The notes beneath the pieces were generated by a model, which did not search any database, was not told the origin of the DNA, and worked only from the letters and a program-made list of their open reading frames with translations. A stretch of 55,119 bases of DNA, taken from Candidatus Methanoperedens sp. (GTDB lineage Archaea; Halobacteriota; Methanosarcinia; Methanosarcinales; Methanoperedenaceae). Of the stretch, positions 28,772 through 30,367 are shown piece after piece. The DNA is taken from assembly GCA_026552855.1 (NCBI GenBank), contig JAPMTX010000140.1, forward strand, positions 1 through 55,119, written 5' to 3'. Numbering within the stretch: position 1 is the stretch's first letter; every line of letters starts with the position of its first letter. The position numbers were made by a program, and so were the translations under genes.

Positions 28772-30367
28772 ATGAACAGCGGGAGTTACGCAGTCAATTA
28801 TAATTTCAACTACAGGAATCCTGCCGTGTCTTCAGGTGGAAGGATCATCCTGGTAGGGACTGCTCATGTCTCTAATAAGAGCGTGGCAGAGGTAAATGAA
28901 GTTATCGACAGGGAAAAGCCTGATATAGTGGCGGTTGAGCTGTGCCAGGGAAGGTACAAGGCGCTAAAAGGGGAAGAAGAGGTCAAAGAGATAAATATAA
29001 AGGATATGCTGAGCGGCGGGAAGTTCTACTACTTTTTGCTGCACTGGCTCCTTGCGTATGTCCAGAAGAAAATCGGCACGGATACGGGTGTGAAACCCGG
29101 CGCCGAGATGCTCTCGGCTATTGAGAAGGCTGAAAAAACCGGAGCCCGAGTTGCGCTTATAGACCGGGATATCCAGGTAACTCTTGCACGCTTCTGGAGC
29201 AGGATGTCCTTTTTTGAGAAACTTAAGCTGTTCGGTTCTCTTACCGCTGCGACGCTCGGTTTTGGCACAAAGGACATTGATATAGACACAGTAACGCAGG
29301 AGGATGTCGTCGCCCAGCTCATCTCTGAGCTAAGGAAGATGGCTCCGAGCGCAGCCTCTGTTCTGCTCGACGAGAGGAATATCATCATGGCGAAGAACCT
29401 GATTGACCTGTCCAGGGAAGGTACGGTCGTGGCAGTAATCGGAGCAGGTCACAGGGAAGGCATACAGAGGTATCTTGATGCCCCCGATACCATCCCCCCT
29501 GTCGGGGAACTGTTGACCATCCCTAAGAAGCGGTTTAGCTGGCTTCGGGCTGCTACTGTTGCGTTCATAGCGATGGTCGTAGGAATGCTCGCTCTTCTTA
29601 TATATTCGGGCGGAGTTACCCTATCGACTCTTCTTACTGCATTTCTCTATCTGTTTATTACCCAGGGGATTCTTTCAGCGATTTGCGTTCTTATAGTCCG
29701 CGGTCATCCTTTCTCTGCACTGACCGCTTTTGGCCTTGCATGGTTCGCATTCCTGCATCCTTTACTTGCTGTCGGGACGCTGGCAGGGTTCGTAGAGGCA
29801 CATTTTCGACCCCCGACAACCAGGGATTTTAAGACGATAATGAAAGATGAATATCTGTTCAGCTGGGATGATGTACCTGGAAAAGACAGCACAAGGCTTG
29901 CAGAGTTCATAGCCAGGAATTACAGTGCAGACTGGGTCAGGACTGCAAAAATTGAAAAAATGAATGAAAGGACTATATCTATCTCGGCGGAAAAGAACCA
30001 GATACTTATCCAGCTTAACGATGATGGAATAAATGATCCGGAATCAATTAAAAGACCCCGGAAAATAACTCTGATATTCAATGATCCATTCATTGATTCA
30101 GAAACCGATGCAGAGAAAGAACATGGGTTAACAGTAGAAACGGAAAATAACAGGCTGAACGTTTACAGAGCCAAAACATTAACAGATCTGATGCAGAACA
30201 AGCTGTTCCGGATAATACTTGTGGCTGCTCTTGCTAATCTTGGGAGTATGATAGGGACTTTTGTAGCAATACCAGTGATGGTACATTACCTGGGCATCCC
30301 CAATCCGCTTGATATTCTCAGGACCGCCCTGGATACCGGGCTGGGCGCATTAAGGAACGTGCTGTGA
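28772..30367 (+). CDS. TraB/PrgY family membrane protein with an inserted module
   Basis: TraB-domain proteins are related to GumN/Tiki-type metalloproteases and PrgY. The N-terminal TraB domain (about 22-250) has LVGTAHVSNKSVAEV, VAVELCQGRYKAL, DRDIQVTLAR and VIGAGHREGI, followed by four membrane helices (about 257-343). Archaeal homologues usually go straight from the RPPTTRDF motif to the final helices (NKLFRIILVAALANLGS, about 476-510). Here some 110 extra soluble residues (about 359-468, starting EYLFSWDDVPG) lie between them, making the protein 531 residues instead of roughly 400. The S2P gene precedes it by one base. The physiological role of archaeal TraB is not established. Confidence 0.9.
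   Translation: MNSGSYAVNYNFNYRNPAVSSGGRIILVGTAHVSNKSVAEVNEVIDREKPDIVAVELCQGRYKALKGEEEVKEINIKDMLSGGKFYYFLLHWLLAYVQKKIGTDTGVKPGAEMLSAIEKAEKTGARVALIDRDIQVTLARFWSRMSFFEKLKLFGSLTAATLGFGTKDIDIDTVTQEDVVAQLISELRKMAPSAASVLLDERNIIMAKNLIDLSREGTVVAVIGAGHREGIQRYLDAPDTIPPVGELLTIPKKRFSWLRAATVAFIAMVVGMLALLIYSGGVTLSTLLTAFLYLFITQGILSAICVLIVRGHPFSALTAFGLAWFAFLHPLLAVGTLAGFVEAHFRPPTTRDFKTIMKDEYLFSWDDVPGKDSTRLAEFIARNYSADWVRTAKIEKMNERTISISAEKNQILIQLNDDGINDPESIKRPRKITLIFNDPFIDSETDAEKEHGLTVETENNRLNVYRAKTLTDLMQNKLFRIILVAALANLGSMIGTFVAIPVMVHYLGIPNPLDILRTALDTGLGALRNVL

Follow-up and report, generated by a model that had tools for sequence, protein, structure and literature searches.

How does a TraB family protein come to be interrupted by a block of sequence that has no relative in Pfam or NCBIfam? 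The gene in question lies on the forward strand at 28772..30367 of the window (the whole stretch of DNA analysed, 55,119 nucleotides from a Candidatus Methanoperedens genome) and encodes 531 aa, with matches to TIGR00261 (3.9e-111) and PF01963 (1.1e-34). The TIGR00261 alignment covers TraB residues 24-360, the block comes next, and the C-terminal helices of TraB stand after it. The original prediction, made from the letters of the window, described an extra block at this place, and the block is real and present as described. As a query, it retrieves about 28 copies from the window's own 3.4-Mb genome, in 21 ORFs and with E-values down to 5e-17 outside TraB, and it is therefore not a chance feature; this genome has an estimated contamination of 6.5%. 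We propose that the block is a coding MITE that an IS66 transposase mobilises in trans and that its hosts tolerate as a self-folding insert, a reading to which we would give a probability of about 0.9 on the basis of the sequences compared here.

The block splits TraB exactly between ...RPPTTRDFKTIMK and the C-terminal helices. This exact break had been predicted and stands; the predicted borders, 29846-30175, are corrected to an element at 29851..30166 (+), which is delimited by sharp nucleotide borders between copies in unrelated hosts and by empty sites. Do all archaeal TraB proteins carry the block, a question raised along with the original prediction? Most orthologues lack it, and the suggested comparison of orthologues with and without it gives a clean insertion site: about 18 same-genus orthologues run through residues 1-360 and then approximately 465-531 in one frame of 424-444 aa, and the block is present in six same-genus genomes (G000, G014, G023, G016, G012, and G010). 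Because the relatives compared are Ca. Methanoperedens, the empty site lies within one genus. Broken or partial TraB paralogues, with stop codons or reduced to a 97-aa fragment, occur at G014:C5:50359-50699 and G005:C14:47143-47436.

In relatives without the block the site reads AAAGCCGA, and in the filled gene it reads AAAGATGA, element, AGAGCCAA. These flanks, at 29843..29850 (+) on the left and 30167..30174 (+) on the right, are degenerate target duplications, each matching the empty site at 6/8 positions, of the 8-bp length found family-wide. The element opens with a left terminal inverted repeat (TIR), ATATCTGTTCAGCT (29851..29864, +; 11/14 to GTATTTGTTTAGCT), and closes with a right one, GGCTGAACGTTTAC (30153..30166, minus strand; 10/14 to AGCTAAACATATAC). 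Its coding part, YLFSW...RLNVY (29852..30166, +), is placed by profile match and keeps the predicted fold (pLDDT 82). The TraB copy is 316 bp long, 54 bp more than the 262-bp family unit, and the excess falls in two expanded turns; the alignment and low-confidence stretches of the structure model locate a 10-codon expansion, GINDPESIKR, at 30026..30055 (+) and a 9-codon expansion, FIDSETDAE, at 30089..30115 (+). In its ends and flanks, the TraB copy fits the family pattern of an element with an 8-bp duplication.

How widely is the block dispersed? With a profile built from 24 own-genome copies, copies were found in 50 of 394 genomes and in 22 of the 136 genera sampled from the phylum, where per-genome counts are to be read as at least the number given, 13 candidates per genome having been scored. 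All the DNA collected yields at least 215 distinct copies (188 of them full length) in 180 host ORFs, overall counts that are lower bounds in genomes largely assembled from metagenomes. These ORFs form 95 clusters without detectable mutual similarity, so the block is not confined to TraB and does occur in unrelated proteins, as the original prediction had it. The FSWD-x2-PG / DWV-x-TAKIEK motif given there is likewise correct, and the Methanosarcinales/ANME range given there holds and can be extended: in a scan of named genomes, copies lie in Methanoperedens, ANME-2, HR1, ANME-3, Methanosarcina, and Argoarchaeum and also in Ca. Altarchaeum/Altiarchaeales, another phylum. The closest pair in different hosts shares 97% DNA identity, and identity across genomes of different families reaches 86%. 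Pfam assignments of 40 hosts include CDC48, RNA polymerase Rpb1 domains, CTP synthase, signal-peptide-peptidase/presenilin, DprA, HsdR, a DEAD_2/Helicase_C_2 helicase, KAP NTPase, type II/IV secretion ATPase, T2SSF, tail and baseplate proteins, DDE transposase, tubulin-like, patatin, and S-layer proteins.

Within this distribution, several local arrangements can be described. In the window's own genome, the region C14:3000-22864 (L089) holds six copies across three adjoining tail/baseplate-like genes (two Baseplate_J and one Tail_P2_I with NHL). Three further loci of that genome (L093, L091, and L101) belong to a family of lipoprotein-like paralogues of about 490 aa with the block at the same place in each, which implies that the family duplicated after insertion. 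A recurrent protein of about 1050 aa carries a copy, apparently at one site, in genomes of family f10 (e.g., G111, G283, G138, G093, G052, G086, G220, G239, G254, and G201), and this suggests an old insertion kept through a family. Spread by viruses and spread by plasmids were both considered and rejected, as IMG/VR holds no relative, whether by protein pattern or by TIR-to-TIR DNA pattern, and PLSDB holds none.

What, then, is the unit that moves? The family unit is 262 bp, GTATTTGTTTAGCT...AGCTAAACATATAC, with 14-bp TIRs. The closest copies in unrelated hosts share approximately 80-97% nucleotide identity and end abruptly at these termini; in alignments of unrelated hosts, homology opens at (G)TATTTGTTTAGCTGGGA and stops at AGCTAAACATATAC, and the flanks are without similarity. 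The ends GTATTTGTTTAGCT and GTATATGTTTAGCT are inverted repeats of each other, limited to about 14 bp per end; the rest of the element is not palindromic. Near both ends, the choice among synonymous codons departs strongly from that in the interior (L=TTG, 58% versus 7%; S=AGC, 76% versus 20%; I=ATA, 84% versus 33%). An 8-bp direct repeat flanks the element, with a lag z of 15 in young copies and 11 in all copies, and the flanks of 180 copies match at 41-55% over the eight repeat positions versus 23% at the neighbouring position. Duplications are in excess at every grade of preservation among these 180 copies: 6 at 8/8 (0.06 expected), 12 at 7/8 (0.7 expected), 22 at 6/8 (4.2 expected), and 18 at 7/8 or better (0.8 expected). 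Exactly 262 bp is the commonest length (97/180), and all 180 lengths equal 1 modulo 3. Since 262 plus 8 is 270 bp, exactly 90 codons, insertion leaves the host frame intact in every case; the remaining five frames of the element contain stops in all or most copies.

The element also inserts into itself. In L108 and L185, an older copy has received a complete second copy in its first beta-turn, which breaks the outer sequence into model positions 3-36 plus 40-89 or 1-42 plus 40-89. Altarchaeum L168 shows an outer copy interrupted by an inner one that is flanked by a perfect GCAAAAAA duplication, and L179 may be a fourth case of nesting.

Which transposase could act on such ends? In 31 same-genus genomes, the TIR pattern TATWTGTTTAGCT is clearly more frequent than its reversed control, and one inverted pair of matches, 1615 bp apart and flanked by the 8-bp duplication AAAAAAAC, bounds a 451-aa transposase that belongs to IS66 (Pfam PF03050, 4.7e-29; NCBIfam equivalog NF033517, 242 bits against a cut-off of 180). 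The intact IS66 in L315/L330 has perfect GTATTTGTTTAGCT ends and the target duplication AAAAAAAC, and the element ends match the L330 IS66 at 14/14 positions on the left and 13/14 on the right. In two IS66 relatives, of 1464 and 1466 bp, the TIR shows 1-2 mismatches at each end, and the flanking 8-bp duplications (GCCTTATT and GATTTTTT) are perfect. In all, three IS66 copies have the duplication at 8/8, and an 8-bp duplication also characterises the element family. The other IS66 subfamilies and transposases of the genus lack the element's TIR, which argues that the match to the L315/L330 IS66 is specific. Just inside the TIR, element and IS66 agree at no more than 9/16 of the next 16 bp and deeper at near chance; because the interior is not clearly IS66-derived, we class the element as a MITE whose ends are of IS66 type and not as a deletion derivative of IS66. 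A search of the window's own genome for an IS66 transposase or autonomous partner found none, and its copies therefore look like relics.

Two other observations bear on TIRs and transposases in these genomes. A DDE_Tnp_1 protein (L195), considered as transposase partner, was rejected as merely another host of the element. At L316-L329, exact TIR sites lie outside coding copies, some of them at contig ends; several continue with IS66 subterminal sequence (CAGGCACAATTCCTGTCTGAG or AACCCTTTTTA) and look like IS66 remnants.

The original prediction that the block is a coding sequence moving between genes is borne out by dispersal, empty sites, terminal repeats, and target duplications; it gave no mechanism, and the TIRs, target duplications, and IS66 partner now supply one.

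The most conserved hosts provide insertion sites that can be examined closely. The RNA polymerase subunit A' (RNAP A') is 879-880 aa and empty in most same-genus genomes compared over the full gene, and it is 977 aa and filled in G016, G012, and G010; the insertion point lies between ...KPTTYIE and EHKLMPTDIR.... In G023, RNAP A' also has the insert and is cut by a contig end, and the four carriers form one clade in the host-sequence tree (100/100 support). CDC48 is 741-751 aa empty versus 835 aa filled, and its insert falls between the nearly adjacent residues 647 and 649 of the archaeal VCP-like structure 5g4g. The CTP synthase of an Altarchaeum, compared with solved structures of the enzyme, is interrupted after residue 128 relative to 3nva. 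Compared with the expected 270 bp, the RNAP insertion has an additional 24 bp and the CDC48 insertion an additional 12 bp, which implies that these sites changed later or had a longer loop.

The choice of RNAP A' and CDC48 resembles that of inteins and raises the question of whether the block removes itself, as an intein or intron spliced from protein or RNA. There are many nonconserved host proteins too, and the block evolves under purifying selection at the protein level, both of which speak against either kind of self-removal. The block is also below typical intein length, has no intein match in Pfam or NCBIfam and no significant fold match to a solved structure, and shows neither a conserved Cys/Ser/Thr at its start nor a conserved Asn at its end. 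We consider self-removal highly improbable.

Can the block be lost once it has been gained? In the CDC48 host tree, the distribution of carriers needs two changes, and one gain followed by a clean loss in G005/G008 would most simply account for it. The TraB copy is also missing in these two genomes; its own distribution calls for three changes, on a tree that is weakly resolved. G005 and G008 are cleanly without both insertions, yet they group with carriers in the host trees, a pattern that points to precise loss or allele replacement. If the history of gain and then loss is right, the block would be dispensable.

The 87-aa product of the element is predicted to be a well-folded domain. A typical 88-aa copy is predicted to be an alpha/beta fold with an AlphaFold pLDDT of 95.8, and the window copy is predicted to keep this fold (pLDDT 82.4), with low confidence only near the two expanded turns. 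A Foldseek search against the PDB gave no significant match (nothing below an E-value of 0.07; best TM, 0.43). In orthologous hosts, dN/dS of the block is 0.11-0.46, and that of the host RNAP and CDC48 is 0.02-0.05 at comparable dS; the product is thus constrained, though far less than the host, the former ratio being several-fold above the latter, and the copies evolve under relaxed purifying selection.

Is the block, then, simply a conventional functional domain, an interaction or regulatory plug-in that was spread by duplication and recombination and is kept by positive selection in each host? Such a domain would be consistent with purifying selection on orthologous copies, with a product predicted to be well folded, and with the finding that all copies are in frame; it fits poorly with hosts that share neither a function nor a compartment and with a dN/dS several-fold above that of host RNAP and CDC48. 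The probable clean loss from CDC48 in G005/G008, from which the TraB copy is missing as well, also weighs against it. TIRs, 8-bp duplications, precise empty sites, nesting, and ends shared with IS66 are transposon footprints, and we regard a conventional domain as very unlikely. What the sequences themselves establish is that the block is dispersed and has empty sites in relatives, that its copies nest and bear terminal repeats and 8-bp duplications, that an IS66 partner has the same ends, and that the product is under relaxed purifying selection.

Why are only in-frame copies seen? Copies outside an open coding frame, intergenic or antisense, were found neither in the window's own genome nor in the profile and DNA-level searches. 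In the nucleotide-profile search of all DNA collected, a single 38-bp fragment lacked a coding match on its own strand, and in 20 of 20 regions re-checked from the DNA-level search the copy lies in coding frames, an outcome with a probability of 3e-16 if about 1/6 of insertions can be read through. In one of these regions, L353 (G017:C51), a frame change inside the copy gives two overlapping frames. Part of the sampling relied on protein similarity, a bias against decayed noncoding copies, although the searches covered six frames and noted stop codons. Under simple random transposition, intergenic and antisense copies would be expected, and the failure to find any counts against our best explanation. 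So do the lack of an IS66 transposase among the sequences of the window's own genome, the weak similarity to IS66 just inside the TIR, and the extra length of the RNAP and CDC48 insertions.

Could the TIR-bounded element be real and its domain nonetheless selected, serving the element or the host, for example by transposase binding or by a response to stress or location? Most random insertions should be noncoding, yet none of that kind was found, all of the re-checked regions being coding, and the product is conserved across two archaeal phyla. Survivorship can give the same pattern, since copies are mostly old and genes alone protect them from deletion; precise losses are probable, and the hosts are functionally unrelated. 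We judge a selected domain unlikely. Also unlikely, in our view, is a MITE whose survival would depend on translation, a domesticated or selfish domain that would enter RNA polymerase, CDC48, and CTP synthase across archaeal phyla only as an in-frame, folded module, kept for a protein function serving host or element. Over selection on the protein, we favour the view that noncoding copies have been removed, DNA without use being deleted and genes providing a refuge.

We thus return to the proposed coding MITE, in which the IS66 transposase would move the element in trans and insertion with its 8-bp duplication would add exactly 90 codons, the host frame never being shifted. One of the six possible readings is open from end to end and encodes a predicted 87-aa alpha/beta domain, and because this product would fold on its own, the host would gain a separate surface-loop domain and not be broken. 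The N and C termini of the domain are probably close together. Tolerance by the host is probably the reason for persistence, and out-of-frame and intergenic copies would be lost by selection and deletion.

In-frame mobile repeats are already known from Rickettsia and some bacterial MITEs, and archaeal coding repeats have been reported from Methanocaldococcus jannaschii. As described in PMC10969869 and PMC2229807, Rickettsia palindromic elements (RPEs; Ogata et al. 2000) are short, inverted-repeat-bounded sequences of about 100-150 bp whose in-frame insertions fall in conserved protein genes of unrelated kinds; they are palindromic and also occur in intergenic regions and RNA genes; their target duplication is listed as unknown in a review table. 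The element described here resembles them in its in-frame insertion into unrelated protein genes (95 host clusters), whereas it is 262 bp long, encodes a complete globular domain, and has an 8-bp target duplication, an IS66 partner, and archaeal hosts; only its ends are inverted, and no noncoding copy was found. The M. jannaschii repeats of Suyama et al. 2005, which have coding potential, are reported in PMC2229807 to be archaeal repeats likewise, with open frames fused into protein genes. With intact same-genus IS66 insertion sequences, the element shares the terminal repeat GTATTTGTTTAGCT and the 8-bp duplication; unlike them, it has no transposase and is 262 bp long. Prokaryotic MITEs with ORFs (ERIC and Coxiella QMITE) are nonautonomous, with TIRs, target duplications, and occasional in-frame fusions, and are mostly intergenic or yield short fused peptides (PMC5896051), whereas all copies found here are in-frame domain insertions. 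PARCEL coding repeats are protein coding and have spread between distant microbes as 25-residue tandem repeats with dyad symmetry (PMC2996958); here, by contrast, a single domain is inserted with TIRs and a target duplication. A search of the literature on Methanoperedens with MITEs or in-frame insertions found no description of the element. What differs from the known systems is the complete domain, the identification of TIR, target duplication, and IS66 partner, the RNAP and CDC48 hosts, and the absence of noncoding copies.

In this element we see a natural domain-insertion machine, in which a transposon unit of 90 codons, target duplication included, delivers a self-folding domain into any gene without a frame shift. 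Its targets include essential proteins such as RNA polymerase A' and CDC48, and it has passed from one archaeal phylum to another. Many inserts left unannotated in proteins of ANME archaea and Methanoperedens are also explained, which is relevant to annotation and structure work. For protein-coding mobile repeats, a transposase candidate, a TIR, and a target duplication are now available, items that are partly unknown for the Rickettsia elements according to the review. How do new domains enter conserved proteins, and why do in-frame copies alone survive? Both questions become testable.
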